Positions 1 to 47,631 of a stretch of DNA of 64,000 nucleotides are shown piece by piece. Under the pieces are notes generated by a model. That model made no database searches, was not told the origin of the DNA, and saw nothing but the letters and a program-made list of their open reading frames with translations. Position 1 is the stretch's first letter; the number at the start of each line of letters is the position of its first letter. This stretch comes from Cristatella mucedo (taxonomy: Eukaryota; Bryozoa; Phylactolaemata; Cristatellidae): NCBI GenBank assembly GCA_009760855.2, contig WPIO01000148.1, positions 350,001-414,000 of the forward strand, given 5' to 3'. Both the position numbers and the translations under genes were made by a program.

Positions 1-605
1 ATCAATTGGTTGGTTACTTATTCGGCTCTACCTTTATTAGGTCGGGGAAATGCTCTTAGTATTTTGACATGGTTTGCTTATTATTTCCGAACAGAGTTTC
101 GTGAGAGGGCGTAACGAAGTGGGACTCAGTCTGCACTAGCAGAGAGAGCTGCTAAATTAGAACGATCGCAGTGCTTACTTAAAATGGAGAACGTTACCCA
201 ACGATCCTTAAAGCCAGACGTACTTTTCGGAATTAACTGAAAGAACATTTTAGGAAAGAATTTACTTCTAATAATTATAGTACTGAATATAACACTCGAC
301 ATCAAGGTCAGGCAAATTTTAGGTGTTCGTGAAGCGCTGCTCTAGGAGCTGCCGCCCGAAGTCATTGTTGAGCATCGCTGCTCTGCGGCACTTCGGACGC
401 CGAAGATGCATTCGTTAGTGCATCTCGGTGCCAAAACGTAGCCTCAGTGGCTGCGTACAATATACTTTGGAGCACTTGCGAGTGCACCGTGTAGACCGGC
501 GGAGATGTTCGGTGGCACAGCCAAGATGGCGAAGTGTTTGCTAGGGAGTACATACCAAGAACCGGAAGAAAATGTAGCTGAGCTGGCCGTCCGATGTAAG
601 TGCTG
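1..605. other. Non-coding, no recognisable feature
   Basis: Open frames here are short, overlap on both strands and have no protein-like character. It is probably intronic to the Kv4 gene whose earlier exons lie off the left edge. Confidence 0.4.
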
Positions 606-727
606 GATTGGTCCAATGGTTAATGTGCTCGCCTCGACCAAGGTCTGGTTGACGTCGTGGGCTCGAGCACCTGAATAGAGATTAAGTTCTCATGGGTCGC
701 TATAAAAATGAATTATGTTTTTTTATG
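606..727 (+). mobile_element. tRNA-derived SINE, family S2
   Basis: A tRNA-like head carries an A-box-like TGGTCCAATGGTTAA and a B-box-like GTCGTGGGCTCGAGCAC. It is followed by the S2 tail (CCTGAATAGAGATTAAGTT) and a T-rich end. The unit recurs at 19162, 38096 and 63461 on the + strand and at 1231, 24605 and 54197 on the - strand. It is a diverged, slightly shortened copy. The family names S1 and S2 are mine. Confidence 0.7.
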
Positions 728-834
728 TAGCTAGCGATCCTTGACAGTTGAACCGAAGACCTCTGACACCTTTGATAAGACGTGTACCCAGGGCGACTGA
801 AATGTGGAATATAATAATGTTAGCACGACATTTT

Positions 835-940
835 CGCTTAGCATAATAAAAAAGTGCTAAGTCTCTTTCTAGGCACTTTACACATGCTGAAAAGAAAGGA
901 TATCGATTGATTAGTGATAAAATCCGCCACGAGAGCACGG
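835..940 (-). mobile_element. LINE A 3'-tail fragment
   Basis: The stretch TCTCTTTCTAGGCACTTTAC is the complement of the LINE A 3' end (GTAAAGTGCCTAGAAAGAGA) seen in many places in the window. The AT-rich terminal repeat is missing. It is short and diverged, so its edges are approximate. Confidence 0.5.
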
Positions 941-1230
941 GTAAACACGCAAAAGACAATTAATAAGCAAATGCTGTTTAGAGCACGTGAATTTTAAGCG
1001 TTGTTCTAAATGTGATTAAGACAGGATATGTCGTGCTGTTCGACGGTAGCAACTCTGGGACACTCGGAGCATTAAACTGAAGGCACTATCTCCAAAGGAT
1101 CCAACGGCAAACGTCTTAAAGTAGAGCCAGGAAGTCCTGCAGTAGTGAGAAGGACAGAAGTCTCGACGGGAGGTCGCAAAGGCATTAACAAGCACGTCTT
1201 GCCGTTGACCTCGTCACAGGCATTTAAACT

Positions 1231-1640
1231 GCTGACATTATATCTCAATTCAGGTGCTTCACATATGCCCCGGGCACGAGCTCACGACCTCGGTAATCAA
1301 ACGCATTCACCTTAATATAATAATAATAATAATAATATATTTGCATAGTGCCATCAGATAGCTGAATCTCTTTCTAGCTTTCTAGGCATTTTACACATGC
1401 TGTATAGAAAGCACTACAAAAGTGATTGGTGGTAACATCCGAAAGCAGCAGGCACAGTGTAAGCATACATATGCACGCGAATGAAAAGTCCCAAAGGCCA
1501 ACTAAATGCTGTGATAAGCATGTTGTTTTAAGCTTCTTTTTAAATGTCGTCATGTCAGAGGATGGTATGACGTGCATCGGGACATTGACCTTGTTCGGGG
1601 CGAGCACCATAACCACTGGGCCAAACCAGTGAGTGGCGCT
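1231..1640 (-). mobile_element. SINE S2 split by a nested LINE A tail
   Basis: Bases 1231-1310 match the tail half of an S2 SINE in reverse, and about 1576-1640 match its head half. In the intact reverse copy at 24605-24760 the two halves are contiguous. The 265 bases between them are a LINE A 3' end, also reversed, beginning with an AAT repeat. The junctions share CATTCACCTT on the left and CATTGACCTT on the right, a likely target-site duplication with one mismatch. Confidence 0.65.
1311..1575 (-). mobile_element. LINE A 3' end nested inside SINE S2
   Basis: It begins with an (AAT)n tract, the reverse of the LINE A terminal (TTA)n. It continues through the conserved tail and the last coding part, corresponding to the weakly preserved frame around TTTAAATGTCGTCATGTCAG. 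Severe 5' truncation is typical of LINE insertion. Confidence 0.65.
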
Positions 1641-3202
<1,562 letters not shown>

Positions 3203-4174
3203 ACCGTGTTAGACACCCAGCAGCCCCGTACCGATCGATACGTGTCAATATTTAGAAGACGATGAGCAGGACGATGATGGGCCAGAAGTCGTGCTACCCT
3301 CCTTCGGCAGAGCAGAGGCCAGTGTCTAATTGCAGCATTGCACATTTGAGTCAAGTAAAACGCCGGCTAGCCAGGACGCCAGACCACCTGCAGCTGTTCT
3401 GCCTCAAAACAAGAGCAACAAGATCGAGGCCGGCGGTTGGCTCGGTTCGGCCATGGCCCTCTCCTGTGGCCGTGTGGCAAGAAACGAGGGGGGCAGCCAT
3501 CTCTAGCAAGAGCCTGGTCAGGGCTGAGAACTTGGGTGCACTCAGCTGCACGAGAGCAGAAGCCGGACTGCTGAGGTCAAGCAGCAGGATTAAGCTGCCA
3601 GGCCTGGCCACACAGGGAAGTAGAGCCACTGCCCAAGGAAGGCCCTAATCCTTGTTCTTCTGGGCAGGTCAGCATTGTTCGGATCAGGCTGCTACAGCAG
3701 CTAATTGCATCAACCTTGCCATTGACACAATTAGCAGCTACAAAAGCTGTGCGAATAGAAAATCAATAGAGAGCAGCAGTTATAACGTCACGGGGAGTAG
3801 GTAAGCATTGCAGACCGACTGACCCCTGGGACTAGGTGACCCCCACCTCTGATGATCCCACCTTGAGCAAGTGACACCTCTCTCTACCTCTCTGTGGCGA
3901 TTGTGCTCATAACCGAGTGTGAGCTTCGTGGCTGCTAGTACTAGCAAATGCTCTTAGCCACAGCAGATGGATCATAGCTACGGCACGCACGCCCCTGCAT
4001 AAGCATGCTGTGCTCTGCATGACGACAAGGCAGCCCTCGAATTACTACACTCCCACTCAATATACTGACTGAATAGGGCTGCTGCTGTAGCCAATCCCCT
4101 GGACTCGTAGGTTGTGACTCATTTCACAGCCCTTATCCAACATCTGCTTTTGGTTCAAGGTCAAGCTTGACAAG
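3203..4174. other. Non-coding, nothing recognised
   Basis: Paired sense and antisense frames of about 90-130 codons at 3262-3648 have no known motif. No splice-bounded conserved exon was found. Confidence 0.35.
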
Positions 4175-4305
4175 GACTGCTGCTGTGAGTGCCTTCACCA
4201 CTATTACCACCACTTTCAGTGGCCCAAGAAAGGATTGCCTGCTTCAGGACTCGAACCCAGACCCAGGTCGTCAAGTGCGAACAACTTACCCCTGGGCTAA
4301 GACCA
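4175..4305 (-). mobile_element. tRNA-derived SINE, family S1
   Basis: Read on the - strand, it has a head resembling CTTAGCCCAGGGGTAAG, then a B-box-like GGGTTCGAGTCCTG, then the S1 body in which a short arm pairs around a Ser/Gly-tRNA-like core. The same unit recurs about twelve times in the window. The 3' part of this copy is diverged. Confidence 0.6.
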
Positions 4306-6126
4306 AGGTGCAATAGGCCAAAGGGTAGCTGAAATACTATGTGCTGTGTCAACAGAATACAACCTCAAAACTGGAGTCCTGCACCGTGACGATTTGCTAG
4401 GCAATAGGTGCAGCAGAAGTTATCGCAGCTGGACTCGCTTCGTGACTTGCTCACAGCTACTCGAGCTACTCCCACTGCTCGAGCGGGAGACAGGCGATCA
4501 CGAACGCTGTTTCCGAGTAGCACTCCACCAACATTGCTGTTTTCAAATGGAGAGGCTGAAAGTCAAGGTCATGAGGGTTGAAGAGGCGACTGAGTAGGTA
4601 GGAGGCGGGATCAAAAAGTAAAATGAAAAATATCCTTCATTCCTATAGCGCCCCCAGAGAACTTAATGTCCACGAAGGTACTGTACATGTGGCGCTAGGG
4701 CATGAGCTTATCTAACGATTTGGCTCGTTCGGTCATGACCTGCAGTCTGGTGCCATTTTTTATCTGGAAAGTGACCTCATATTTTGCCAGCTGCATCTTT
4801 CAGTAGTCACGTGGCTGAACTCCTTAATCTTAGTCTCAGCTGTTATTTTCCAATGCTTATTGCAGGTTGCACTGGCTTGGTATTTTTTTTATTCGAGCAT
4901 AAGTTCATAGGAATCCGTGTTTATTTCTTGATCCATTGTATTTGCTCAAGTACAGCCGTGATATACTGAACAATGCCTGAGCACCTGAAAATGATGCAGC
5001 AAATAACCGTCAATCGTGCGATGTACATACTACATGCCAATACCTTTGTTTCGCAATCCCGTTGGCTTCAGCTTGCATTTTTTTTAACGACATATGCCTT
5101 TCACTATTGATGTAGCATACACACCAATGCCAGGGCGCCACATCCATCAATGTGTGAAACATTTTGCCAAGTAGCGGAGGATCGAATGCTTTGCTATTCT
5201 TGTCCTCTATTTGAAGTGCTGTGGGCACAAATACAGGATGCATAGCCGTAGTATTTCTAGAGCACAAATGCCTTTGATAATACCGCAGAGTAGATATAGA
5301 GGAAGATAGAGCTGCAGAGGGACAGACAGAGACGGAGCTCATGCTGATGTGGGGTAGTCGTCGTGGCTTCTTTGACATTGTCGTCGCTTCTGCTCAGTGA
5401 CTCGGGCAGGCGAACGCTGAGTTGCTGCTGCAGTGAGGTGACCGACTTTTCAAGCGGCTGGAGAGCCTCATGTACTCTCTGGTCCATTCAGTCATCTACA
5501 GCCCAGCCATTGGAGACCATGCGCACTCGTTATTAATTTGTAGCTGCTCTTAGAAATGTCGATAGCTGGCCCCACATTTCAATCATAAGTGAAGGCACAT
5601 CGGCTATCAGTCTTTCTCTGAGGATTAGGCATGATTGCTTACGGCTCGAATGCACCTACGGCAGACAACAGGTCGTCGTTGGTGTAGCTCTTTCGCTGGC
5701 CTCGCTGCTGCCGCATTTCAATCTGCTCTGGTGTTGTGCCGACCTGGCACAACAATGGCCGCCGGAGATCCTCCTACAGGGCTGCTTCGGCCACTTCTAG
5801 AGTTGTTGCCGCACTGCTAGCTTTCGTGTCACACCGGTAGCTTCATCAGTGCAGCAGTGAAAGCAGACAGGAGAGAGGCAGAGTAGAGGGACAATGAGGA
5901 TGAGGGGAGGATGCACTCGTAAGAGATGGTTAGAGGGTTCAGAGGTTAGAGGATAGGAGATGGTTGTAGGCTTCAGGGGGCAGGAGGTTCGGGAGCTGTG
6001 CGAGCACGAGAAGGATTGAGACAATCTGTTGAGATGCACCGCCCAGAGACAGAGGGTAAGACCTTGGCTGTTACGATAGATTGCTGTTAGCTTGCTCTGC
6101 AGGGAACTGACTAGCCGGGTTGCCTT
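4306..6126. other. Non-coding, one weak minus-strand frame
   Basis: Nothing is clearly coding. A 122-codon frame on the - strand (5010-5378) has a mixed composition but no domain that I recognise, no splice support and no neighbours to join. It is not called as a gene. Confidence 0.3.
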
Positions 6127-6345
6127 AATAATAAAAATAGTAATGATGATAATAAATTTATATTACACCTTCAGAGAACCTAATCTCTTTCCAGGCACTT
6201 TACACATGCTGTAAAGGAAGCATGATCGAACGGCTAGTAGTAAAACGAAAAGTGTCAACATGCATAATATGGTTAGTGGTAGCATGTAAAATGTCAACAT
6301 GTAAATATGGTTGGTGCTATCATGCACAGTCCTCCCCTTGCTGTC
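6127..6345 (-). mobile_element. LINE A 3'-end fragment
   Basis: An AT-rich trinucleotide start (ATAATAAAAATAG) is followed by the LINE A tail (AATCTCTTTCCAGGCACTTT) and the 3' UTR with its repeated GTCAACATG motifs. It is 5'-truncated before any reverse transcriptase sequence. Confidence 0.7.
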
Positions 6346-6579
6346 TGCCGATAAACTGTCTCAGCCGTCGAGCATGGCTCGCACAGCTGCTGCAGCCGAT
6401 CGACCGCCGAGTTGCCCAGTGACCAGTGACTCCTCCAGTCGTCTTCGAGCTCTGCTCTCATTTGCACTCGCTGCCCCAATGGCCCTCTCCCTAGTGCTTA
6501 CAAGTAACCGCCCGTCCCTTCCCAGCTAACCACCGAGTCGGTCGGACGTGCTGAGCCGTGGCTGGCGATAGGCAGTACG

Positions 6580-6745
6580 GATCATCAGCCCAGAAGTTCT
6601 GCGCTGGCTCCTCCCGACTGAGGTCGTGGGTTCGAGTCTTATAGTGCTGAAAAATTGCTCATCACCCCTACTACAAGCTACGGCGATTTCCGTAAAGGCT
6701 CTTCGGTCGCTATATAAATGAGGCTGTCTAATCAGTCAAACTTTG
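6580..6745 (+). mobile_element. tRNA-derived SINE, family S1
   Basis: The B-box-like GGTCGTGGGTTCGAGTC is followed by the S1 body and the typical tail CGCTATATAAATGAGGCTGT. The A-box half is eroded. I see no clear target duplication. Confidence 0.65.
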
Positions 6746-7619
6746 TCTTATCTTTAACACTGTTTGAGCTGCCCAGCTCTGCCCCTCACCCCCTCCTGCC
6801 CCTGCCACGCCTTTTCCGGTCGTGGTTGATCATGGCTCGGCCGTCCATGCTGCTTGGTCCTGGGCTACGTCTGGGCTACCCGTCCACTACGCCTCCACTG
6901 GTCACTTCACTCTCGCCACTAGTGACAGACCGAGAAATTCTCTAAAACCCGGGTGATCACGTGATCAGATCGCGACAACCCACCCCCTAATCAGTAATCA
7001 GTAGAGACTGCCTCAGAGAAAGAGGAGACTTCAGAGCATTAATGTCAACGACAAAAATTCATTAGAGGAGCGAGCCTCTTAAGTAAGGGGGTAAGCCAGG
7101 TAATCTGTGCTTGGCCTACTTCGTTCTACAATTTATCCTCTCCCTCTTGCCGATGTAATCGCCTAGCTCAATCTAGGCTTTCCTTTTTATACAGATGACA
7201 GACCACTGCTCCTATGCTTTAATCTCTTCCTCCCTTCCGGAATGTCAAACCCTCACAACTTCCGTGCTGCATTTATTGCTGACATCCGCATTTGGATGAT
7301 ACAAGAATTTCTCTAATTGAATTAGTGTATGACAAGCTTGCTCGCTTGCTTGCTATGGGCATACTTAGTGCTAGTCACAAATCGAAAAAAAGGCGAGCCG
7401 TCGCCCCATGAAGAAAGTCTGAAAAAAGTCTTTCCGTTAAAAACGCAGCGTTTGGCCTCTGTGTAGTCCTGTGAGCACCAGGCAGGAAACACAGCCCCTG
7501 TAGCTGTGCCAGTCTCCGCCCGACGGATACGCCCGGCGAAACCTGAAATTTTGTATCTTGACTAGCGACTTGTTGGCGAAGCACGTCAACACCAAATCAG
7601 GTATGCCGACTTAGTATCA
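6746..7619. other. Non-coding, nothing recognised
   Basis: No exon-like frame or repeat was identified. A short CTTG-rich patch lies near 7335. Confidence 0.3.
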
Positions 7620-8110
7620 TAACACGCAGCAACGAAGAGCGCCCATATCTAATAAACCAACGTGCATGGCGTAGAGATTAAAGCAAGACAGTCCACCCCT
7701 CCGAAAAATACGGCTGACGCACTTTCGCACGTTGCAAGGAGGCGAACTTTTTTGAACCGTCGAGATGGCGCCAGGCCGTGTCTTCAGAGACGGAGCTATT
7801 GCGACTCAGCAAAGCGAGTACACAAGCAGTGAGCTGCTCGCTACGTAGAAAAGTCTATTCGACAGCTGGAGATGGTTACGTGCGTTCAACAGAGGCCTTG
7901 CCGGACACCAATGGCTCAGTGGCCTAGAGCTTTAATCAGCTCGAATGCCAAGGCAACTCCGGAAGCGAAACTAAGGGCCATTTACACGGCTCATGTTTTT
8001 ACGAGGCCTTGGACGTAGATTGTTTCGAAATCGGTTTCCAGCTGCACTAAATCAGGAGCCACTAACAATTAATCTCCGACATAGTCAGGCATATTCTGCT
8101 GTCATTTACA
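7620..8110. repeat. Unclassified dispersed repeat, copy 1
   Basis: It shares several ordered blocks with 23490-23830: AACGAAGAG, GTCTATTCGACAG, CAACTCCGGAAGC, a GCCT-GG-C-TAGATT block and CAGGAGCCAC. The spacing is similar and the orientation the same. It encodes nothing recognisable, so it is probably an old mobile element or segmental duplicate. Confidence 0.5.
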
Positions 8111-9044
8111 TGTCATTCGATTGTTGCCACGAGCTTCGACCTATCGAAGATGGTGCGGCCATGCTTGTCACTAGAAGCAGAGAGCTCTCGCGAGAGCCAG
8201 GCGAGAGAGACCGGAGCAGGCAGGGGGCGGCTAGGAGCGGAGGTGGTTGAATGGGTGGGCGACGACAAGCGAGAAGAGCAGCTGCTGCGCGATGGCTCAG
8301 GGAGGCACCTCCCTGGAAGCAGGGCAGACAGTTCGCCGGGTAAAGCCGCAAAAACCTGCCTAGTTGGGTGGTGGGCTCACTGCTGCATGCTGCTAGCCTG
8401 CCAGTTCGACCTGACCAACTGTGCCCAGTCCCTGCTAGCGGCAGCCCCGACGGCCGTGCGGGCAGCTTTCTGAAACATTCATTCACGTGAGCTGCCTGCC
8501 CAGTGTATGCAGGGAAAGCTGTGTGACCTTGTGCGGCCGGTCCTCAGTCAGCTAGCTGCCGATAACTAAATCGACTGGCTACTGCAGCTGCTGGTGTCAT
8601 ATGCCCCTTTGCATTGCGACTACATCTTCCTAGTATGCTAATGTCCTAAGAGCCAGCCCGGGCCACCCTGCAGCCAGCAGCCGTCTTTGCCCGGGGGACC
8701 AGCAGATGCTGCTGGCGCCATGCCTCCGACCACGACGCCAGGTGGCGCTTACTTAAACGGGCGATGCCCGCTCCGGGCTCTGCTTGCCATCAAACAACAA
8801 TCGCAGAGAGTGAAGAGCAGCTGGTGTCGGCGGGGTGGTGGGGGGGGGGGGGTAGCGGTGGTGGCGCGTAGGGAGAAACCCACTGTCGCAGCAGCAGCAG
8901 CTGCCTCGAGGAGTAGTGCCCACTGGCAGCGCGCATGGCAGAGCCATTGAGTGCAGAGATGGCAGCACCCCCTGCAATTACTGACTCGAAATCAGCCCAA
9001 CCAGTGCACAAATCCCGGCTGGGAATAGTGTTCTTCCGGTAGCC

Positions 9045-9078
<34 letters not shown>

Positions 9079-10157
9079 TGAAGAGCTAGCCCACTTTGTT
9101 GCTCTCGGTGCCCCTTTTGCAGTACCCGGCGGCCGCCCCCACCGCCCCGGCCCCCTCCATCCCCTGCAATATCGCCCCAGTTCACCTCAGCTCCCCAGGA
9201 ATCTTGCTTGCTCGATCGTGCGGTCGTGCCTGGAGTATCGGTCCTTCTTTTGTGTCAATTGGGTCCTATTTGGACTTCACAAATTCTTCCTAAAGGTGCT
9301 TGGTCAACCGCACTAGCACGTGAGGGTCAGCTGATAGCTACACCCGGGATTTGGCAACCTAGAAGCAGAATTTAAAATGCTGTCCTGACAAGTCTTATTA
9401 AGTAGCTCTCTACGAGCTGACTACTCTCTGGCCTGCACTCTCGTTGTGCACTCATACACGAAGCCAGTTCGGTGCACTGAGTGCAGTCTTGCTGTAGTAA
9501 AGTGTAGTGCAGCACACCAGGCTGTGCACACACTCAAGTCCCTCTCGTACTCTGATGGCACGTGACACGGGAGGGTCGCCTGAATGCGGTCGAATCAGTA
9601 AAACTGTTGGGATCGAGTAGACCTGGAGTGAAAAGGGTCGCATGTTTGCAGCAGATAGAAGGCAGCACCAGTGCTATTCACACACACCCCCATCCCACCC
9701 GCGACCCGTGAAACCCAACTTGTGCAGCACCTGCCCACGTTTTGTCCTGCCACGGTTGATAATAGCAAAATGGCATGTAATGGTGAAAATAAGTGAAAAC
9801 AAAATTTTCGGAATGAGGAGGCAGCGTTTAGTCAGTAGAAGGAAGTGTAAAGCTGCCTTGTGGGACCGCAAGGTCGATGAGAGCAGTGTTTAACTGAACG
9901 GCATAGCCCTGGTGCTTTGCTGGGCCTTTGACATGTAGACAGCAGGCGGTAGCTACAGCAGATAGCCGGCAGGGACGATCGACTTGGATTTCTATTAAAG
10001 GGGCTCCAGCGGAGCTGGTGTCGGTGGGTTTTTGCCAAGACTTATGCATAACTGATGAACCAATGAACGCAAGCTTCCGGGTGCATCCCAAGGATTGCAG
10101 CATGCCCCTTGGGCTGGCAGCGTTCAAGGCAGCTGCACAGGCCACGATTATTAATGC

Positions 10158-11964: not shown

Positions 11965-12741
11965 CTTCTCCCTCTCTCTTCCTCTTTCTCTCCCTTTCAT
12001 GTCTCGTTTTCGTAAGTGCTTGTTTTGAGGCTGTAAATAAATATGTTCACATGCATCATATAACTTCAGCATGCCTGGAATCGTAAAAAAATCCTGCTTA
12101 CTCGAACGAATTTACAGCCACAGCACTGGGGGCCATAATGGGAAACAAATTTACAACCGAGTGTACACATTAGTACATCAGCTGGTCGGTCTCCAGGCTA
12201 AGCCAGGCCTGGACTAAGATGCTTGGGACGGTTAGGTATTCGTTGGTGATTCAGGATACCCTAAAAAGGCCTATCTGCACTGCATTGAGGAACGCCTACA
12301 CTAATCCATCACCCTCAAGACTGCTGCAAGGGAGGCACGGGGGAAGCTGCGACATCATCTGGCGAGAGGCTGCCTCACCAGCTCACCGGATGAGCAGGCA
12401 GCAGTCAGAGCAGGATAGCGGCCCAGGCCCACCTGAGCTGCTCCTCCGCGGCCCAGGCACCTAGTCGAGCTCACTTGTGTCAGCTGTACGAGCTGTTTGC
12501 ATCAGCTATTGTGTGACGTATAAAGAGTGCACATCCAGCGGCAGCGAGCCTCCTATTCGTGCTCCTGCTGCCATCCTGAAGTGCCATCTTGAACAGAAGT
12601 AGACATCGCAGGCATCGCAGGCCACGGCAGCTGCACCAGGAAGGAAGGGGAGCAGCACCACTAGCGGCAGCAGCAGCAGCAGCAGCAGTTAAACGAAAAT
12701 GGCAGCTCCACTGTGCAGCCTCTGCTGGGTTCTCGTGACAG
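11963..12741. other. Intron sequence before the Kv4 pore exon
   Basis: It holds (CAG)7 at 12667-12688 and no other structure that I can assign. It ends with the acceptor CTCGTGACAG just before the Kv4 exon. Confidence 0.4.
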
Positions 12742-12904
12742 GTACGGTGACGTCGTGCCCGTGACGATATTCGGCAAAGTGGTCGGAGGCGTGTGCGCTC
12801 TAAGTGGAGTGCTTGTCATAGCACTGCCAGTGCCTGTCATCGTATCTAACTTCAGCCGCATCTACCAGCAGAACCAGCGTGCTAATAAGCGAAAAGCCCA
12901 GCAG
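12742..12904 (+). CDS. Kv4 exon: selectivity filter end, S6, post-S6
   Basis: The 163 bases begin with the last base of the filter Gly codon, then encode YGDVVP, the S6 helix with [17 protein letters not shown] and the post-S6 [19 protein letters not shown] completes the K+ selectivity filter, and PVP is the Kv gating hinge. The acceptor is CTCGTGACAG and the donor GTCAGT, leaving phase 0. The match to Shal channels is close across the whole exon. A frame that runs on to 13141 past the donor is Pro-rich and is read as intron. Confidence 0.93.
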
Positions 12905-13774
12905 GTCAGTAGTCCCACCCCACTCCACCCCCCAGTGCCTGCAACGTTCAGCACCCAGAATCCTAGGAAGCTCGGTGCACCTTCTCCTCCATATTCTCCT
13001 CCTTTCCCTCCTACTCCTCCCTCTCCACTTTCTCGAGCTTGCCCCATGCTTGGGCCATGCAAATGCATCCATCCTGCACCCGAGTGGTCAGATGTCACGA
13101 TGAATAACGGAGGAAGCTGCTGTCCCGAAAAAGTAGCTTAAGAGCATTGGGTGGAGCTCGCAGGGGGCTCCCTGCTGTTGGGCGGTGCCGCATTAGCCAC
13201 CCAATAGTAGCTAGGCACCGACCTGGGCCGCTCCCTTTTCTTATCCCCCGTGGAATGTCACCTACGATCGATGAAAGCATGTCATAATTCCACTCGATGA
13301 GCAACCTTCGTGTTCGTGACGAATAAGCACCGCTATGTTGTGCTATGATTCTTCATTAATTTCGGATCTAGCTCTGAATGTTCGAAAATCTTTCGGGCCT
13401 AGCACCCCACATAAAAATGTTGCAGGTTTAGCCTGCCAGGGCTGAAAATCCATCGCTCCATCGCCGATTAAGAGTCACTAAGGTTAAGGTAATCTAAAGT
13501 TAAGATTCTTAATGTCTCTTAATCAGTGGGTGGAGCCGGGATTTTCAAATATTTTCGATTCTAAAGCATCAAAATTGTGATATTATTGAACGCTATGCTG
13601 TACAGTGCACGGGAACCAGTCCCTTTCAGATAAGCAGGCTTATAGTCCACTGCGGTGCCTAGGCCGGCTGAAAATCATAAGGATTATGGTGTTGCAGCAT
13701 GAATGAGCCACGTTTTTGCCTTGACTATTTATTTTTGCTTTGCGATTGTGCAATACTTATGTATTTTTGGTACA
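12905..13774. other. Kv4 intron, nothing recognised
   Basis: It begins with a C- and T-rich stretch after the donor. No repeat family or exon was recognised. Confidence 0.4.
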
Positions 13775-14185: not shown

Positions 14186-16641
14186 AGTCTTCAAGGAGCA
14201 TACCTGCCTGAGTGTGCTGTAGTAGCGATTGCACAGAAAAGCTGCAAAGGGTGGGGTGCATTGTGCTTACCGCTGAGGAGCCGTAGTGTTGGCCTGTTTT
14301 GGAGGCACTCATCTTGCTACAGCTGCCACGTCAGCAGTGCAGAGAAAATTCTGCGGGCATGATTCGAGCTGACACCTCGGGGTTAAGAATCAATAGGGTT
14401 AGCCAACAGATCATTGGGACTACGGACCAATAGGTGGCCACTGTGACCTTGTCTCCTTGCCACTTCTCAACTTTTCTTATTTCTGAAGATGCTGCTGCTT
14501 CTGCAGAGAAATTAGTCTGGTCCTGTAAGTCTGTGCAAGCGTCCACCCAAGGGATTTCCAATCAAAATGACTGTATTCATGCACCTTCAGCATCAGCACC
14601 GTTTTACTTTCTTGGTTTGCCACTTGGCAGACTCCTAGCTGACTGCAGACGGGAGCTCTACTAATTGGAGCAAAGAAATCGCAAGACATTCCCATTCCTC
14701 ACATTTAATTCCCATTTCAATGTCCTCCCATTTCCATCTCCAGGAGCGTTCTCTGCCCTTTGCAAGCTTCTGTGGCTTCAAGAAAATCTGCTCGAGAATC
14801 TTCTTTTGACGAGCTTCTTTCGAGGCCAGGCAAGGTCATTTTTGCCGAAGGTCGCATTGCATAAGGGGGCTACTCTCACCTGTATTTCTTAGGATACCTG
14901 CTGAGTCTCCTGAATCGTTCTTTTAACAGCCAGCTCTTTCCATTTTTAGTTGGGAGCAGCCAAAAAATGATAGATGAAATGCTAATATGGCCCAGGTTTA
15001 GATTGTTAACCTGGGCGCTTTAATTGACAGTCATCTGACCGAACAAACAGCAGCTATAACAACAAATAAGCAGTCCTCTGACCAAATAAACAGCAGCAAA
15101 GCCAAGATCACAGGTTTTCCAAGGATCTGGGAAATCCAACCATCTGAACTAGGTACCACAAAACTAGGCAAGCGCGTGCTCACTCTGGACCAGAACGACC
15201 CGATCGGATCTAGAGCCTTGAGATGCCTCCCGTGCGAAGCTTTACATGACAGCTGCTGAGGATCGTTAATATCTATGAACTGGGTGACTGATTAATAGCA
15301 GGACTTGGGTTAGATCTTTAATTTCTGATAACTTTTAGTTCACCATAAAGTTATCGGAGATTTACAAATTCCTTCTTTTTAAATTTCAATACACCATAGT
15401 TATTGTTTTTATTTTGCTCCTTACATTTCTGCAAGTTTTTTCAATGCTAAGTGTAAGTACTTTCAGGTTCAAGTATCCTGCCCCTTCCAGCACCCTGAAC
15501 CAGGTCATCTCAGATTTTCTCAGAGGAGCTATGCCGTGGGCTACATACATGCACTTAGGCAGGCAGCTGGAATGGGACGAGAGGCTCTTTGAGTGTGGCA
15601 CACTCTGAAGCTGCAGCTTCCGACAAGGAACTGAAATGAATGAGCCCTTCAGGACCCTTCCTAGTTGATTGCCTTGCCTGCTTTGAACGTCATTCAATTA
15701 GTGAGGGAGTGAGGGCTGAACCCAGGGCTGCACACAGGCTGACCTGTCTATGCGTGCCCCCCCCCCCCCCTGTGCATGCCGCTACCTTCGGCAGGCAGTA
15801 AGCATGCATCCGGTATGGAGCAGTGCAAGTGCTGCCTCTGATGATCGGATTGCTTCTACACTCTCCAGATATCTGTTCGCAGGACTAAAAGCTAAATCCG
15901 TCGCTGAACAAGAACGGGGCAGCCGATTTTCCCATCTGCGGCTACCACGGACAGGGGCAGCTGCTCCTGCATTGGCACCCTCACTATCAGGCCAAATGTA
16001 ACCTGCTAGATCCCACCTGATCCTACTTGTGAGCTGCGCATCTCCTTTAGCTAGCGAAAATTGCATCATGCTCTAATGACAGCGCTCATCTGCAATTACT
16101 GCAGCAAACTCGAGACCAAGTGTGATTCCATTACTGCAACAACCTCTTGTAGCAGCTAATGAGCTTGAGTGGGTGTGACTGGCTCAGAGCCCCAGTCGGT
16201 ACATCCCTGCACAGCGATCACTCCAGCATCGGTCCGTCCATCGGTCGCTCGGTCGTAAGGCAATCACTTCAGCCTCAGCCTGCTTGGGTTTACTTACGCA
16301 AAGCGGCCCACACCCCCCCCCCCTGGGCCCGGTGCATTACGTGCTGTGAGTAGCATGGCCATCCATTCAGCCTGTTCGGCAATGTAGTCAGGCCTAGCTA
16401 GTGCAGCCCCCTAAGCCTGGGCTGAAACCAGTGATTCTCCCTTTGTCCGAAGCCAATTCACGATGCTGGCTGATGACCCATTCCATAGACATCATAGGTG
16501 CTCAGCACGGCGATCGGCCAGTTTCTGAGCTGCTTGCTACACTAGCATTCCCGCCTCCCGCCATAGAGAGCCAAGGGGCACGAAAGCTAGGCCACCTCCT
16601 TTGCACGGCATGCTGGCTGCTGGCGTAAGAAAGCCGCCAAC
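14186..16641. other. Kv4 intron, nothing recognised
   Basis: About 2.4 kb with short C-runs near 15760 and 16312 but no repeat family, exon or RNA gene that I can support. Confidence 0.35.
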
Positions 16642-17159
16642 ATGGCATCGTTTGTTCGTACAGCAATGTCAGGCTCAGCTATGGACACAGTGTTCATAGT
16701 AGGCTGTTCAACATGGTCGCCAGGATATGTTTACATTTGCGTGAAATAAACACGTTTTTAATTATCCTTTTTCAGGTAGAACTTCTCTGTAATACCTAAA
16801 TACTAAACCATAAACCCTAAGACCTAAACTCTAAACCCTTTAATTATCTCTGTCAGTTAGAATTTCTCTCTAATACTTAAAAACTAAACCCTAAACCCTA
16901 AGAGATCAACTCTAAACCCAAAAATTCAAGTAAAAAATACAAAATCTAACCAGTAAATCATAAACCGTGAGCCCCAAAACATGCAACCCCTAAATACTAA
17001 ACCCAAACTCCTAAACCCTAAGTTAAAAAGATAACTGAAAACGTGTTTATTTAACGTAAATATAAACCGTGCGCTGCTGCCGACCATGTTGAGCAGCCTG
17101 CTATGAGCACTGTGCCCTTAGCAAAACCTGACATTGCTGTATGAACAAACGACACCGTA
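16642..17159. mobile_element. Foldback element with telomere-like core
   Basis: The left arm (about 16642-16770) and right arm (about 17030-17159) are inverted copies, roughly 80-85% alike by eye. They share TCGTTTGTTC, TACAGCAATGTCAGG, CTCAACATGGTCG (one T/C change) and AAATAAACACGTTTT. The core holds CCCTAAA-type heptamers. There is no transposase, so it could be a non-autonomous DNA transposon or another foldback structure. I could not identify a target-site duplication. Confidence 0.75.
16795..17020 (+). repeat. Degenerate CCCTAAA heptamer repeats
   Basis: Units CTAAACC, ATAAACC, CTAAGAC, CTAAACT and CTAAACC follow one another with period 7. There are two blocks (about 16798-16838 and 16880-16921) and scattered units to 17020. 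The two blocks and their AATTATC..TTAGAA leader form a tandem duplication of about 83 bases. The heptamer is the plant-type telomere unit, not the usual animal hexamer. Confidence 0.8.
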
Positions 17160-17374
17160 TTAGCTGAGGAACGGCGCATCGCCTTCGGGGTTGCCAGCAA
17201 AGCGACAAACTCATTCAGCCAAGGCTCTGCCAGCTCTATCCGGAGCTCTCTGCCAGCTCCGTCATTCAAACGACCGCAGCTCTTAGCCAGCTATTGTACG
17301 ACAGAACCTGTTTATACCGAAACAAAAAGAAAAGTTCACTGGAGCGAAACATGAGCTGACTGGAAGAGATATGT

Positions 17375-18668: not shown

Positions 18669-18869
18669 AAAGCGCGTCAGGCGAGGGCTCGCATAGCGAA
18701 GAACACGGCCAACCAGGTGTATCTCAAGTTCAAGCATCAGGAGGAGCAGAAGGACGGCGGCTCGCTGCAGCAGCAGAGCATCGAGCTGAATCGAGCGGCG
18801 TCTGCTGGCGAGAAGGACGCGCTGCTATTGCAGCACCACCACCTGCTCGCCTGCCTCGAAAGGACGACC
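18669..18869 (+). CDS. Kv4 exon: proximal C-tail, dileucine segment
   Basis: The exon is 201 bases (67 codons, phase 0 on both sides) with acceptor TTTTGCAG and donor GTGAGT. It starts KARQARARIAKN, matching the conserved basic segment after S6 in Shal channels. It ends LLLQHHHLLACLERTT, matching the Kv4 dileucine segment known in vertebrate Kv4.2 as a dendritic targeting signal. The middle (about residues 14-48, Gln- and Glu-rich) is unlike other Kv4 proteins that I know. Confidence 0.92.
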
Positions 18870-19912: not shown

Positions 19913-22382
19913 ACCATTACTCTTTACAGTACAAGTATCCCTTATAAAAAAAAAAAGATACTCCCACGCGGATTTACAAATTTGGGCGACCAAAGTGTCT
20001 TGCTTGTTTCGTTCTACCTAAATCGGCCATCACCAATTTCTTTACAATTTTTTGACTCGATGTTGCACGATTGCACTACCTGTGCATAAATAATATCTAT
20101 ACGTCACCGAACTCACGTATACCTATTTTTCTTCTACATACATGTACGTAGAGAAGGCAATATGTGCAATAAGAATACGAGGCATAGGCTCCCACACTAC
20201 ACACTGCATACATCTACTTATACTTGTGTACATATATGGATGTAACCAAGACTGGGGGTGTCGGCCCGACCCGCCCGACCAAACGCCCTGTCCGCCGCCG
20301 CCCATAGCCATGTCGCTGTCGCGGGGGGGGGGGGAGGCTAGGGCAAGATGGGCGGCAGTTTAATTAAACCTTCTTATACTAATTTCGCGTGCACCAAAAA
20401 TAGCAGAAGAATTAAACAGTACTGCTGGGGTCCTAGGTACTTTAGACTACGGGGGATGTGGAAAATCGTGCAGCCTTCCCTAAACTGGATGGCACTCTCG
20501 GTACGGAGCAATCTTGATGGCGGGTGCGATCTCGCATATACCAATCGCAGCGGCATGGGTACGACAGTAGCTGAAGCAACAAAGACTCACTGGCGAGGCA
20601 CATCTCAGCTCGCCGAGGGCTTCGGCTCAGGCAGGGGAGGCTTCGAACAACATGCTAGAAGCGAACGTGGAATATACAAACCGTAACAGCGAGTGCGCTT
20701 ATCTCCAGCAACGCTCGCGAAGTGGGTCCCTGTGGCCTTTCATAGTTGACGGCATGGTCGAGGAACGCCAGCTATCCATCCTTCGGGATGGGAATACTGA
20801 GCAAACGGGGGCTCTGCACTCTCACGTCTCGGCCGATCAACACCTGGTACTCGAATGCTCAGAACAAGGGGCCATGTGGCCTCACATCAAAGGGCAGGCT
20901 TGGCCCAGCCAGTGACCCGTAGCTGGCCGTATCGCGTTGCAGCCAACCAAGGCTACTGAACCTTGATACTGCGAACGGGTTAGCATATATTCGCAGAAAA
21001 CATTATGCAGCTCACATTTCGGTCTAAACTAGCATATAATTTTGAATTCTGCCTAATCGAAAAACTGCCCACAGTTCAACTTGCTGGATCTTCACGTTGT
21101 ATTGCCTTCTTATGCGGCCATTATTCACTGTGGTTGAGGTCCAGCTGCTCTTGCAGCCTTGATGTTAAGTCTTCATGTTTACAAGCTGGAAGAATGGAAG
21201 GTATCCAACCTCGGCGAATCACTGTGCACATGCTAGTGCTTTCGCTACAAGCGTAGCCAAACTGTTTCCCGGAGACCTCAGCGACATAAAACCCAGGTAT
21301 TAGGCTGGAGTCGCGTCTCGACTTGGCCAGGGCCGAGCAGGCAGCCTTCAGCGAGCAGAAAGGGTGTGCCAAGTCGCTCAGCTGCTCTTCTGATTCATCC
21401 CAAATGAGTCTGCAGTCCTGCAGCTATTTTCACAGCAGGTATAGAAATCGTTCGCAAAGATTCCCTCAACACTCCGATGTGTCGCCACATTTGCACGTGC
21501 AATCCTGAACAGACGTGCATTCGTGCATGTACAGCAGGAGAAGCATGTTCACATGCGTGCATCGCGTACACCACCCTTTTTCCTTACTTGGCTATTTTCG
21601 GAATCAGACAAATCCATGCACGATCCAATACACTCAACTGAAACCTAAAGTCAATGCAATAGCGTTGCATGGCATTACATACTTGTCTATAGCATTGCAG
21701 GGATCATGTCAACCTCACACAGCATAAGCAGCCCTAGGCAGAATAGGGCAAATACTAGAGAAATGCAGATTAGTTGCCGCCAAAGCTCGGAGCTAGATGA
21801 CGATATTGGACTCGAGATTGGACACCGCACGGCGAAGCAATAGAAATGGGCAATTAATACCATCGGCAAATGTTGAGCGATGAGCCGCGCTGGCATCGCT
21901 AGATTGTCTAATTAAGCGAACACTTTCAATCACTTTTGTGCGGACGGGCGCTAGCGTCGGATTATGCTTTGCAGAAGCAGCAGCACGTGCAGCTCCGAAA
22001 CGTGACGCACGAGTCTGGCTCTTGGCTCAAGCCTCGCTGCCCGCACACCTGCTCCTCTCTGCTCGCAGCTCATTTCTTATTAACAAATTCGTACAGAGCC
22101 TAATCAATACAAGCCACTAAATCGCATACGATCTGGCACTGCTCCGAGCTATTCTGGCAGCGGCCAGAGTAGCTCGGCTTCGGCATCGACCGAATCTAGT
22201 TGCTCCTTGGGGGATATGTTTTTCCCCTCGCTCCACTCTCCGTCGGCCTGGCACTCCGGGGGCTGACGCAATCAGTGTCCGCGATTTGATGTTTACTCCA
22301 TGCGGCTGGCGCGACGTTCGAACTGCTCGTTAGCTCCAAGCATGGCGGCACATCGATATGTAGCCATTACAACGACAGGGTC
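19913..22382. other. Kv4 intron, one short shared segment
   Basis: About 2.5 kb. Bases 20885-20935 resemble 60238-60290 (TCAAAGGGCAGGCTTG and AGCTGGCCGTATC in order). Otherwise there is a G-run near 20322 and nothing assignable. Confidence 0.35.
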
Positions 22383-22542
22383 GTAGCCCAGGGGTAAGCA
22401 GCTCGCTCATCACTACCCAGCTCGTGGGTTCGAATCCTACAGTTGACAATCCTTAATTGCGCCTGCTGCAAGCGGGGCGATCGCCGCCAAGACTCTTCTG
22501 CCGCTATATATATAGATGGGGCTGTTGGATCAGCTGATCTTC
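22383..22542 (+). mobile_element. tRNA-derived SINE, family S1
   Basis: A good copy. The head is GTAGCCCAGGGGTAAGCAG, the B-box-like part is TCGTGGGTTCGAATCCTAC, then the body, CTTCTGCCGCTATATATATA and the tail GGCTGTTGGATCAGCTGATC. Confidence 0.8.
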
Positions 22543-38872: not shown

Positions 38873-40310
38873 GGTTAGTGGTAGCATGCTCAATAAACAA
38901 AATGAATAACATGGTTAGGGGTGACATGCACAGGGTCAGCATGCAAATGTGGTTAGTGGCAGCATGCACAGTGCCAGCACGCTTAAGCACATTAAGGATG
39001 AATCATAGGGACCGACTAAATGCTGTCCTAAATAGGTGTGTTTTTAAGTTCTTTTTAAATGTGGTCAAGTCAGTGGACGTTCTGACACAAGTCGGGAGGG
39101 CCAGGCTTTGGGAGCATACGAACTAAATGCACGGTCTCCAAAGGATTTGAGGTTTGTACGAGGTATTTTTAGACTGTTGGATTCCGAAAAGCGGGTGGTA
39201 CGATGCTTGGCCTGGCGGGGGGGGGGGGGGGGAGTAGATCTGAGAGATAGGCTGGAGCCAAAGAATGAAGTGACCTAAAGGTGAGCGACAAAACCTTGAA
39301 GTCGATCCGTTGCTTGACTGGTAGCCAGTGCAGGTCGGCGAGAATTGGTGTGATGTGCCGACTGCGACGCTCACGACAGACAAGCCTAGCTGCGGAGTTT
39401 AGCACCAGCTGCAATCGCCTGAGTGCACAGGCCGGTAGGCCAGCAAGCAGTGAGTTGCAGAAGTCAAGACGGGATGTCACAAAGGCACGGACCGACTTGG
39501 ACGTGGTATCCTTATCTAAACAAGCCCGAATTTTAGCAATTTTATGTAGCTGAAAGTAGGCAGATTTGACTGTGGAGCTGGTGTGGTCGTCTAACGAGAG
39601 GTCGCTTTGGAACATGACACCTAGATTTCGAGCTGATTCAACAGGAGATATGCTGGCAGAGCCAATTTTGAGCATCAGCCTTTCCAATTTCTGAATCACA
39701 CTGGGTTTGCCCATAACTAGTAAGTTAGTTGTATCATAGTTTAGTTTTAGAAAATTTGCTGCCATCCATGTGCGGATGTCATCAATACATGCAGCAAGTG
39801 AGTTGAGAGAATTCGAGGTGCTCGAAGGCTGGGAGGGATCAAAACAAAGGTGCAACTGAGTGTCATTCGCATAGAAGTGAAAGCCTAGATTGTGCTTGGC
39901 AATCACATCAGCAAGAGGGAGAGTATCAACCGTGAAAAGAACCGGACCTAGCATGGAGCCCTGAGGTACCCCATATTTCAGAGGTACCTCGGATGATCTT
40001 TGTTTATTTACATAAATACTCGGGAGTCTGCCACTGAGATAGGACCTGAACCATTGCAGAGCAGTGCCAGTGATGCCCAGGCGAAATGAGAGGCGCTCTA
40101 GAAGAGCTTTGTGATCGATAGTATCAAAAGCTGCCGAAAGATCAAGCAAAACAAGCAGACACTCTACCTACATCTGCATTCCTAAGTAGGTCGTTGTGCA
40201 CCCGAAGCAACGCTGACTCAGTGTAGTGATTAGCTCTAAAGCCAGACTGGAACTTTCTAGCAATGGTTAGTCTCTTGAATATCCGAGTTCTTAGTGCTGG
40301 ATACTGTCAC
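38873..40310 (-). mobile_element. LINE A with reverse transcriptase, inactive
   Basis: The longest LINE A copy. The reverse frame (40149 to 39169, and out of frame to about 40300) gives FQSGFRANHYTESALLRV, LDLSAAFDTIDHKALLERL, YGVPQGSMLGPVLF and FYANDTQLHL, then the thumb and a C-terminal HWLPVKQRIDFKVL. This is an L2/CR1-like non-LTR reverse transcriptase. The catalytic box is YAND instead of YADD, and there is a frameshift near 40148. There is no endonuclease, and the 3' tail is cut off where LINE B begins. Confidence 0.88.
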
Positions 40311-41901: not shown

Positions 41902-42611
41902 GTACAGTATGTGGCTGTGCTCATTAGCATCGGTTCCTTCATTGCAGTAGAGCTCTTTGCTTTGACGAGCACACATTGTGTCAGTAATTGGGCGGGAGCC
42001 AGAGTAGACGATGTTGCATCGTTGCCATCGCACGCACCATCACACGCTTCTGCTGTTCGTCACGATCATCTTCTCGGTCGTAGCTAGCATTCTTCTCGTC
42101 CCCATCGTCGTAAGGTTGTCAATACTTTCGGAAAAGAGCCTGTTAGAGTCGCCATGTCTCCGAAAGGTAGTTGGCCTTGGTACTGTCCTATTATGTCTTG
42201 GAACTTCTGTCCTTTTTTAATCTAACAGCATCTGCCGATTTCTGTTTATCGGATGGCCTGCTTGATCATTTTACTACTGGTATGTCTATTTATTGCATGG
42301 TTGCCAATCAATCTTGGGCCGAACCCAGTCTCACGCCCTTTTGCATTGAGCCTGGATCTGAACTGAATTTAAAAAATAGCGCACTACTTGTGCTCTGAAC
42401 TGAGTGAGCTTGCCATCACCATGGACAGAGGGCCACTGTGCTTTAAAATGTGCTTGCTTGCTCTCTCAATCTCTGCCTTTGGCTGCCACTGGCTGATGCT
42501 TCCACGTTTTAACTGGCGCTGTGCTGCTGCCAGCATTCGGTATGTGGTGCCGCTTGTCCTTCACTCTGCCAGCATGCTCGAACAGCATCTGGTCGTGCTT
42601 TACTGCTTCAG
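41902..42611. other. PRMT intron, nothing recognised
   Basis: Frames at 42011-42220 and 42171-42398 are short and without motifs. Confidence 0.4.
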
Positions 42612-42679
42612 AGAGGCTATACTGAAGAACTACCGACATTTCTACAAGAAGGTCGTGCTTGACGTCGGTGCAGGCACGG
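42612..42679 (+). CDS. PRMT6-like exon: SAM-binding motif I
   Basis: 68 bases, acceptor TACTGCTTCAG, donor GTAAGT. After the split Arg it reads EAILKNYRHFYKKVVLDVGAG and then T, with the next Gly split by the intron. VLDVGAGTG is the glycine-rich loop that binds SAM. Confidence 0.95.
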
Positions 42680-42924
42680 GTAAGTCGTCCATAGCTGCTC
42701 GGTTGTTTGTACTGTGCTCTTAGAGACGTGTTTCATTATTTGCTTAGCATTAGTAATTCTGAAGCCATTGTGCTGCGTGCTGATGAATGACGTTCGATCG
42801 TCTTACATTGCCGTTTGCCCTGAATGCTTCGTTTTCTTACTGGTTGGCCCGAGCATAGATGTGCTCACTGTGATGGATAGCAACATACCTGTTATAGTAA
42901 GATGTTTTGGCTGTTCAGCACACC

Positions 42925-43022
42925 GCAATTCTTAAGCATCGATCATGACGTCGAGCACAGCTGATCTGTTCTCTGCAATTCTTAAGCATCGATCATGACG
43001 TCGAGCACAGCTGATCTGTTCT
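42925..43022. repeat. Perfect 48-bp tandem duplication, period 50
   Basis: 42925-42972 and 42975-43022 are identical over 48 bases, beginning GCAATTCTTAAGCATCGATC. It lies in an intron. It is either very recent or an assembly artefact. Confidence 0.95.
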
Positions 43023-43466
43023 TGGCATGACGGTAGAGTCCAATGGCGGGCTGGTTTCATTGCTAGTTCGACAGATGCTATCGCCACAACGACGTATGCT
43101 CACACAAAGACAGATGTTCTGGCATAGTTCTCGAATGCAAACTCTCCAATGCACCCGAAAACGTTGGCTGTATTTACTTGATAGCACTAGAGTCAAGAAA
43201 CCATCAATTAACATGGCGTTCACAACCAGTAAGGAAGCACGTTCACCAAGAAACTCCAATATATTTACTGATAGAGCTAAAAACCGGTGAAGTCATGCAG
43301 AGCAGCCATTGCTAAGTAAGTGCGTGCAATTAACTAAATTTCAATGACAATTTTAATGAACTAGCATGAACCTGAAAATTTGCAGTTACACGATATTCAG
43401 TTTGAAACTTAAAGGCCGTGCATATGAGCTTATAGCTGCACAAGGATCAGCCATAACGATTTAGTC

Positions 43467-44272
43467 CTTTCGTTAGACTACCACAGCTCCACAGTCTAGT
43501 CTGCCTACATTCAGCTACATAACTATGCTACAATTCGGGCTTGCTTAGGCAGGGATACCACATCTAAATTGGTCCATGCATTGTGACATCCTGTCCGGAC
43601 TTCTGTAACTCACTGCTTGCATGTTTACCGACTTGTGCAATCAGGCGTTTACAGGTGCAAAATTCGACAACTAGGCATGTCTGTTGTGAGTGTCGTAGTT
43701 GCCACATCGCACCACTTTTCGCCTACATGCACTGGCTCTCAGCCAAGCAGTGCATCGACTTTAAGGTTAAGGTCACTCACGGTTTTAGTTCTCTTCATCC
43801 TTTGGTTCTAGCCTATCTATCAGATCTACTCACCCACCAGGCCAAGCATCGAACCACTCGCTTTTCGGAATCTAATCGTTTGCCAATACCTCGTACGAAC
43901 CTCAAATACTCTGGAGACCGTAGGTTTAGTTGTAATGCTCCCAAAGCCTGGGACTCACTTCTAACTGGTGTCACGACATCCCCTGACTTGAACACGTTTA
44001 AAAAAAAGCTAAACATATCTATTTTTGACAGCATTTAGTGGGTTTTTGAGATTCGTCCTTAGTGTGCTTATGCATGCAGACACCGTGCATGCTGCCACTA
44101 ACAGTATTTGCATGCTGACCCTGTGCATGCTCTAACCGTGTTATTCTTGTTGTTTATTGAGCATGCTATCACAAGCCATTCGACCGTGCTTTCTTTGCAG
44201 CAAATGTAAAGTGCCTAGAAAGAGATTGAGTTCTCTGAGGGCACTATTTCAAATGTACTATTATTATTACAG
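43467..44272 (+). mobile_element. LINE A 3' half
   Basis: The forward ORF remnant includes DFCNSLLACLPTCAIRRLQ, then after frameshifts LSDLLTHQAKHRTTRFSES and the domain end, 3' UTR, tail GTAAAGTGCCTAGAAAGAGA and a terminal (TTA)n. 5'-truncated inside the RT thumb. Confidence 0.85.
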
Positions 44273-46507: not shown

Positions 46508-46662
46508 AGCTTAATGGAAAAGGTGCTCACTTTTCACGACCCAGGTCGTGGGCACGAGTCCTGCAGTGGGCGATGCTTTATTGCCCACTGCAAGCAGTAG
46601 TGATAGCCGTCAGGGCTCTTGTACCGCTATATAAATTAGGCAGTTAAATCGGCTAACCTTAA
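46508..46662 (+). mobile_element. tRNA-derived SINE, family S1
   Basis: Head with AAGGTGCTCACTTTTCACGA, B-box-like GGTCGTGGGCACGAGTCC, the body and the tail CCGCTATATAAATTAGGCAG. Confidence 0.8.
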
Positions 46663-47338
46663 CCTTTTTTTTTGAATGACCCTACACCAGCCAGCTCCTG
46701 CCGAATCGAGTTGACAATGGCAGCAATCGTTCGGTACAATCAGACGTGGTGAAACAGCAAAATGAAGTCAAGTGAGGAAGTGCTGTCTGTGTTAATGCCA
46801 TTATGTGTGATGCTGCTGCTGGTCTGAAGCTGTTTTTATGAGAGTGAGCTCTCGACCACGGATTGCTATGCCCCTGGCTTGAGCATCTATCAGATTGCTC
46901 GTCCACTTCACTTCCGCCGGAGTCGGCCATGCTGTAGTGCCAGCATCAGCTTGCCCTGTAGCGTGGGATGCGTGCACTTCCGGCTGTAGGAGCAGCTCCA
47001 CCATAGCAAACTAGGAGGAGCGTAGGGCGACGTCTTTGCAAGCAAACGCCGGCCTGGTGCAGCGTTCGTCGGAGTGCACGCCCCTCTTTGTCTAGTGCCT
47101 AGGCGCCGTCGGTCCTTGTAGCAGTGCCGCCATCTTGCCCCTTTTCTTCGAGCACTTTCGCACGACCCTCGGCTTGCGGTCCCTGACTTATTTACCCGCC
47201 GGACATTGGCCTGATGCTCTGTGTGCACCCGCTCGCCTGCTGTAACCGATCGTGTCCTCTTCGTGACAAGCTTTCACGTTGGCAAACCCCGGCAGTGCCC
47301 TCGCCAAGCGTGAGACCCTTCTGGCGTCGTCGTTGTAG
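46663..47338. other. PRMT intron, nothing recognised
   Basis: GC-rich towards the right. It ends with the short exon's acceptor GTCGTTGTAG. Confidence 0.4.
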
Positions 47339-47380
47339 GCATACTCAGCGTCTTCTGTGCGCAGGCCGGTGCACGAACAG
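47339..47380 (+). CDS. PRMT6-like 42-base exon: rest of motif I
   Basis: Two bases complete the split Gly, 13 codons read ILSVFCAQAGART, and one base begins Val. Acceptor GTCGTTGTAG, donor GTGCGT. The sequence nearly matches the PRMT6 GILSIFCAQAGA segment. Its length is a multiple of three, so skipping it would keep the frame but remove 14 residues of the SAM-binding fold. Confidence 0.93.
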
Positions 47381-47514
47381 GTGCGTGCTCGCGCTCGCAA
47401 GCTCAGCACGAGCTCGCCCGCCGCTCGGCTGCAGATGGTCCAGCTAGGTTTCCGCATGTGCATGGTGCCCTGCAACCCACAATAGTATCTTTGTTTCTTC
47501 GTCATTGTCTGCAG

Positions 47515-47615
47515 TGTATGCCGTGGAAGCAAGCGGGATGGCCGACTATGCACGGCAGGTGGTCAAAGAGAACGGCATGGAGGACCGGATAGTCGTTCTG
47601 AAAGGCAAGGTCGAG
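47515..47615 (+). CDS. PRMT6-like exon: post-I acidic residue
   Basis: 101 bases, acceptor TTGTCTGCAG, donor GTAAGG. It encodes YAVEASGMADYARQVVKENG and MEDRIVVLKGKVE. The Glu of VEAS is the residue that holds the SAM ribose in PRMTs. It leaves phase 0. Confidence 0.95.
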
Positions 47616-47631
47616 GTAAGGCTGTCGGGCC

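Follow-up and report, generated by a model that had tools for sequence, protein, structure and literature searches.

A dispersed, long-TIR, foldback-like MITE family with a decayed CCCTAAA-type interior in Cristatella mucedo

The window is the whole stretch of DNA analysed here, 64 kb of Cristatella mucedo (C53:350001-414000 of a host assembly of 572 Mb in 688 contigs). It contains an element in which two long terminal inverted repeats (TIRs) enclose a one-directional array of CCCTAAA-like units (Table 1). A Kv4 exon is found upstream of the element and a weak PF11879 match, below the cut-off, downstream, so its most likely place is a Kv4 intron, in keeping with the originally predicted intronic position. 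The QHHHLLACLERTT stretch in this downstream match is one that we take to resemble Kv4. Elsewhere in the window, reverse-transcriptase fragments (RVT_1) lie at 39169-40167 (-) and 48248-49585 (-), with many related fragments across the window; our impression is that they are CR1/L2-like. Pieces resembling protein arginine methyltransferases occur within 42373-47783 (+). The best PDB matches of the piece 47448-47783 are CARM1 (E 3e-6) and PRMT6 (E 2e-5), and the likeness of the piece 42373-42723 was judged by eye. The host is an animal, as had been supposed, with COX1 of animal type on the mitochondrial contig C688. This COX1 reads through under table 5 and has seven AGA and four AGG codons, which by the usual code rules out a vertebrate. 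It gives its best PDB matches to COX1 chains (E 1.5e-262) that are presumably mammalian, and in our impression it looks lophotrochozoan. A block of C688 (21,008 bp; L216/L217) is present twice about 2.1 kb apart and once more inverted, possibly as an assembly effect, and one nad2-like ORF, recognized by eye, is on the opposite strand.

Table 1. Coordinates of the element and the neighbouring Kv4 matches in the window
Feature	Position	Strand	Basis
Matched part of upstream Kv4 (KCND/Shal) exon	12740-12907	+	Best PDB match KCND2, E 4e-22
Left target-site duplication AAGAAAG (5/7 match with the right one)	16627-16633		End table and family-wide 7-bp signal
Element, window copy, 533 bp, CCCTAAA on + strand	16634-17166	+	Ends projected from family TIR
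Left terminal inverted repeat (consensus 136 bp)	16634-16771	+	Arm alignment, family ends, consensus
81-bp tandem duplication, copy 1; window copy only	16757-16838	+	TRF, self-alignment, copy comparison
Decayed unidirectional CCCTAAA array	16790-17021	+	Period-7 analysis, alignment to CCCTAAA units
81-bp tandem duplication, copy 2; window copy only	16839-16919	+	TRF, self-alignment, copy comparison
Right terminal inverted repeat	17025-17166	-	Arm alignment, family ends, consensus
Right target-site duplication AGGAACG	17167-17173		End table
Possible downstream Kv4 exon, QHHHLLACLERTT stretch	18816-18869	+	PF11879, 23.6 bits, below the cut-off of 25

The predicted inverted arms are real. Compared within the window, 16648-16771 and 17025-17152 are 81% identical (E 6e-30), and a gapped alignment spans 16636-16779 and 17018-17164. 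The arms were not found elsewhere in the 64-kb window. An element does occupy the originally predicted extent of 16642-17159, but the family places its ends 8 bases (left) and 7 bases (right) further out. The period of 7 is also real. In the region 16786-17025, the lag-7 autocorrelation is 0.506 versus a mean of 0.318 for 1,000 dinucleotide shuffles, none of which reaches it (z 6.4), and further peaks appear at lags 14, 21, and 28. TRF reports a period-7 row at 16795-16839 with 71% matches. The heptamers are degenerate, as had been described, with only two exact CCCTAAA and seven exact CTAAACC in the same region. The CCCTAAA-like units share one direction, so the array is not a head-to-head chromosome fusion. 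The expected tandem duplication is present as a period-81 row of TRF at 16757-16919; its size is 81-82 bp by TRF and alignment and not the proposed 83 bases or so. Of 40 copies, the window copy alone has it, and because of it the array measures 232 bp here versus 154 bp, or 22 units, in the family consensus.

The arms are multi-copy in the host genome, so the locus is not a single-copy one. The element query gave 143 matches in the host assembly, and when the best 40 of 853 first-look candidates were scored, at least 40 family places were found, including the window; in the other 39, the best piece is 75-81% identical to the window element. A TIR-only query gave 41 matches, and the best 40 of its 1,070 candidates included 26 places outside the first set. 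We cut eight loci from the TIR-only set (five new and three known) and found a clear array in seven. L251 has only part of the array (array score 30) and covers no more than consensus positions 1-211 besides its TIR, and the right end of L247 is absent. Among the scored candidates of the host assembly, the element is thus seen at 45 places, with TIR matches at 21 more; we guess that the whole family may number hundreds of places. Polymorphic or recent insertions were not seen among the copies examined. A search of a phage collection in distant mode with the element gave no match, and one exact TIR word had no match in viral contigs. At least 119 prokaryote stretches contained an 18-base word, which is too short, and we took these as chance matches.

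For the analysis of ends, we required both TIR ends to be reached within 4 bases. This holds for 29 of the 40 copies, including the window copy; the other 11, with an end missing or diverged, were left out (L138, L139, L144, L147, L150, L151, L156, L158, L159, L163, and L165). The consensus is the majority of the 26 copies below 620 bp, without L137, L152, and L161. It is 447 bp long, its TIRs, with ends CAGCTAATACGG, are identical over the first 136 bases, and the consensus ends read CAGCTAATACGGCGTCG. The 26 copies differ from it by 12.6% on average. There is no long coding frame in the consensus, the longest stop-free frame being 66 codons. The three copies of about 1 kb (L137, L152, and L161) were considered as relics of an autonomous element and rejected, since their extra 500-700 bp are not common to the three. 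By eye, the extra sequence is a 16-bp minisatellite in L152 and resembles the ends of the window's non-LTR repeats in L161.

Of the 154 columns in an alignment of the consensus interior to (CCCTAAA)22, 119 are identical, 32 mismatched, and 3 gapped, and the phase is near-constant over the 22 units. The alignment score is 81 for CCCTAAA, 50 for the next of 20 units of the same composition, 39 for CCCTAA, and 26 for CCTAA; CCCTAAA is also the top unit among 1,500 sampled 7-mers. Shuffled interiors score 17.3 on average with a maximum of 34 (500 shuffles). Array scores in the 29 copies range from 37 to 83, with no more than 12 on the opposite strand; the lowest single copies, L164 (37) and L160 (43), are near the shuffle maximum. 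Because the interior was used to orient the copies, we make no claim of a common orientation among them, which would be circular. The mean copy support is 0.85 at the 32 deviating sites versus 0.88 at the agreeing sites. The deviations from perfect heptamers are common to the copies, indicating that the array already looked much as it does now when the family began to spread. An ordinary A/C-rich minisatellite, grown by slippage inside the element and unrelated to telomeres, could give a similar interior. The consensus matches CCCTAAA at only 77%, the near neighbour AAAACCT scores 74 versus 81, and Galileo elements carry tandem repeats according to the accessible text of one report (PMC3573991). 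We nevertheless consider this origin improbable, because no other unit tried scores as high, the phase is nearly kept across the units, and thousands of exact TTTAGGG words in the host are an available source. The interior is thus supported as captured telomeric DNA.

The element could also have a selected job in the Kv4 intron, with its interior or hairpin acting as an RNA hairpin, an editing substrate, or a telomere-protein site. The + strand RNA folds at -180 kcal/mol versus a shuffle mean of -87 (z -16.9), and the Rfam model K_chan_RES, a potassium channel RNA editing signal, matches the upstream exon at 12737-12850 (+) with 74 bits versus a gathering score of 51. This signal was described for a different potassium channel gene, although the match here is on a Kv4-type exon. 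We regard a selected job as very unlikely. The TIRs account for the stem, the window copy differs from the consensus by 11.5%, much as its relatives do, and the transitions between the arms show no bias toward keeping G-U pairs (7 of 16), which gives no signal of selection on the hairpin. The very stable predicted RNA hairpin may be a passive by-product of the element.

Alignment of the copies recovers fixed ends and 7-bp target duplications. In the 29 copies, 114 of 203 flank positions match at this length, a number that 0 of 20,000 permutations reach (mean 55.6, SD 6.8, maximum 86). At least five of seven bases match in 14 of 29 copies, at least six in nine, and all seven in three, while at least five match in only 1.2% of mismatched flank pairs. 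The z value is 8.5 for length 7; no other length between 2 and 12 exceeds 2.6. The target duplication is 8 bp in the hAT superfamily and 9 bp in Mutator and Foldback; we rejected membership in hAT (z 1.4 at length 8 versus 8.5 at 7) and in Mutator or Foldback (z -1.2 at length 9). Fewer than five bases match in 15 of 29 copies, which age would explain, as would errors in the end projection. Empty sites were found for two of the 29 copies, L131 and L142, whose joined flanks, junction included, can be aligned to repeats free of the element. L131, compared with five such repeats, has 6, 6, 6, 7, and 10 extra bases at the junction, and L142 has 6; the joined flanks of L155 match their own locus only. 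Because L131 and L142 score low in the end table (2/7, and 1/7 with the right end shifted one base), the empty sites support a precise insertion with a short duplication, not one of exactly 7 bp.

Instead of one mobile unit, there could be an interstitial telomeric array with two repeats next to it that inserted independently and in opposite orientation. This would fit arms that are only 81% identical in the window copy, but it is highly implausible given the TIR-array-TIR order of all 29 copies with both ends and the 7-bp duplications outside them. The chance of a Helitron, a retroposed, or another non-TIR element is negligible, with nothing found in favour and, on the other side, consensus TIRs that match perfectly and a target duplication of fixed length. 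We are therefore confident that the element is a copy of an old, non-coding, dispersed, long-TIR, foldback-like MITE family of cut-and-paste DNA transposons. The original prediction of a non-autonomous DNA element with captured telomeric DNA is borne out by the fixed ends, the 136-bp TIRs, the 7-bp duplications, the two empty sites, the short stop-free frames, and the better fit of the interior to (CCCTAAA)n than to other 7-mers tried.

The heptamer of the MITE is the same unit as that of the host's own telomere-type arrays. Counting overlapping words, the host assembly holds 4,005 exact (TTTAGGG)3, 1,971 (TTTAGGG)26, and 1,573 (TTTAGGG)42, whereas exact (TTAGGG)5, a 21-base TTAGGG word, (TTAGG)6, and the reversed control words each have 0 in the same assembly. 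The heptamer, originally called unexpected in an animal, is therefore not foreign to this one. Two contig ends, on C43 and C185, carry arrays in terminal orientation. C43 is 977,500 bp long; it has repeated exact words between 977106 and 977459 and closes with 71 bases of TTTAGGG-type sequence, the final 40 of which are degenerate. C185 (158,591 bp) has N at 1-10000 and again at 20001-22500; CCCTAAA arrays, degenerate in part, run from the first N stretch to at least 25 kb. No forward (TTTAGGG)42 word precedes C185 among the matches listed (about the first 100 places). Arrays are absent from 36 of the 38 contig ends examined: 16 of these are the two ends of each of eight large contigs (1,500 bases per end; two ends have single heptamers), and 20 are further 3' ends (200 bases each). 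Several contigs have lengths that are multiples of 2,500 bp, and their ends may thus be scaffold cuts. Internal arrays occur at C24, C42, C32, and C33. In L173 and at C11:265920-286161, TTTAGGG words recur every 3.9-4.2 kb or so, like a satellite holding heptamer runs. The interstitial arrays L176 (C42:258000-259400) and L178 (C33:4817000-4818300) contain blocks of variant units such as TTCAGGG, TTTTGGG, and AAGCCCCC, which look as if locally homogenised.

We judge it somewhat probable that the host telomeres are TTTAGGG. If so, the telomerase RNA would have a CUAAACCCUAA-type template. The telomerase RNA-binding domain PF12009 has one partial match (E 9e-5) in an open frame at C68:564231-564350, which likely marks a TERT gene. 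We rejected the host arrays as expanded MITEs: the nine array places tested are without arms, the MITE TIR having no match (E up to 1) at these nine or at four P-transposase places (26 loci, one of them all N, at 13 distinct places). Contamination is an unlikely source of the heptamer arrays, because C185 holds a reverse-transcriptase element of the window's type (86.5% match over 623 bp at 80-87 kb) and arrays lie inside C33 (8.6 Mb), C11, and C44, contigs that also hold family copies. The region L255 (C185:80001-87000), which adjoins this reverse-transcriptase element, is AT-rich, with 36% GC versus 49% in the window. The accessible part of the TeloBase report cautions that TTTAGGG in animal reads may be contamination (PMC10767889). 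A snail paper, as far as its available text goes, writes the forward strand of its 'hexamer TTAGGG' as TTTAGGG, with signal at one chromosome end (PMC13359775); we took this as a slip, and it could be a real case. Our literature search, with most subscription papers and the TeloBase tables outside its scope, found no animal TIR element with a TTTAGGG array and no named animal with established TTTAGGG telomeres, and it returned no paper combining TTTAGGG and Lophotrochozoa.

The best candidate for the transposase source, given the 7-bp duplications and long TIRs, is a Galileo-like element of the P superfamily, which we name only tentatively. P-superfamily sequence is present in the host as four PF12017 matches, and the MITE TIR is absent within about 1.5 kb of these loci. 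No autonomous partner with these TIRs appeared among the best 40 of 853 or the best 40 of 1,070 candidates. We did not file the family as Galileo, since it has no GTAGTAC target consensus and no transposase tied to its TIRs. The ancestral element, with 136-bp TIRs, would have lost or never had a coding interior and would have received about 154 bp of host TTTAGGG-type telomeric DNA between the TIRs. The capture may have been a gap repair that used telomeric or subtelomeric DNA as its template, or the work of telomerase at an excision break. Copying from an ectopic template during gap repair was proposed for the interiors of Anopheles P-MITEs in the text available (PMC1562414), and telomerase can add telomeric repeats at breaks according to the accessible part of another paper (PMC2246262). 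Host telomeric DNA would come to lie between two TIRs by either process. The originally suggested telomere-repair scar that later spread is compatible as this capture step, as is template copying. The array would have been already degenerate, or have decayed, in the master element, as the deviations seen in common suggest. A transposase acting in trans would then have bound the TIRs and inserted copies with the observed 7-bp duplications. Later decay would have taken each copy about 12.6% away from the consensus, and the one in the window, within the Kv4 channel gene intron, would have acquired its private 81-bp tandem duplication.

We slightly favour the overall picture of an invertebrate with chromosome ends of the plant-type heptamer TTTAGGG and a heptameric telomerase template, in which a transposon has scattered captured degenerate telomeric arrays genome-wide. 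In this picture the motif must be older than the amplification, the copies now standing about 12.6% from the consensus. The family thus gives a relative date for the telomere motif, and it would set a minimum age if the host telomeres are TTTAGGG. In that case the animal would also be outside the TTAGGG, TTAGG, and TTAGGC types, the canonical animal-group motifs in the accessible part of TeloBase (PMC10767889). The copies would supply interstitial telomere-like sites, testable for telomere-protein binding and fragility.

Several known systems share parts of this organization. The Foldback (FB) element of Drosophila has long inverted repeats forming a hairpin, as here, but its tandem repeats are in the arms and its duplications are 9 bp, whereas the repeats here are between the arms and the duplications are 7 bp. 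Galileo, Newton, and Kepler of Drosophila (P superfamily) are also comparable; in the available parts of two reports (PMC2775673; PMC3573991), they have 7-bp duplications and long TIRs like the family here, were first filed as Foldback-like, and include many non-autonomous copies, some with tandem repeats. In the same texts, Galileo duplications follow GTAGTAC, while the 29 left flanks here have no such consensus. The family also differs from these elements in its TIR of 136 bp, its lack of a linked transposase, and the telomere-type array in the middle. The P-MITEs of Anopheles gambiae are likewise shortened elements whose interior bears no relation to the P element, but the accessible text gives 8-bp duplications and TIRs of 27-31 bp in the P masters (PMC1562414), unlike the 7 bp and 136 bp found here. 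The interstitial telomeric sequences of primates and rodents are telomeric repeats inside chromosomes, as here; in the part of that paper available to us, they are separate insertions at break sites (PMC2246262), whereas the array here is part of a mobile family. Both kinds of sequence, long-TIR MITEs and interstitial telomeric repeats, are well known on their own; the MITE family here, with its fixed telomere-type interior, brings them together.
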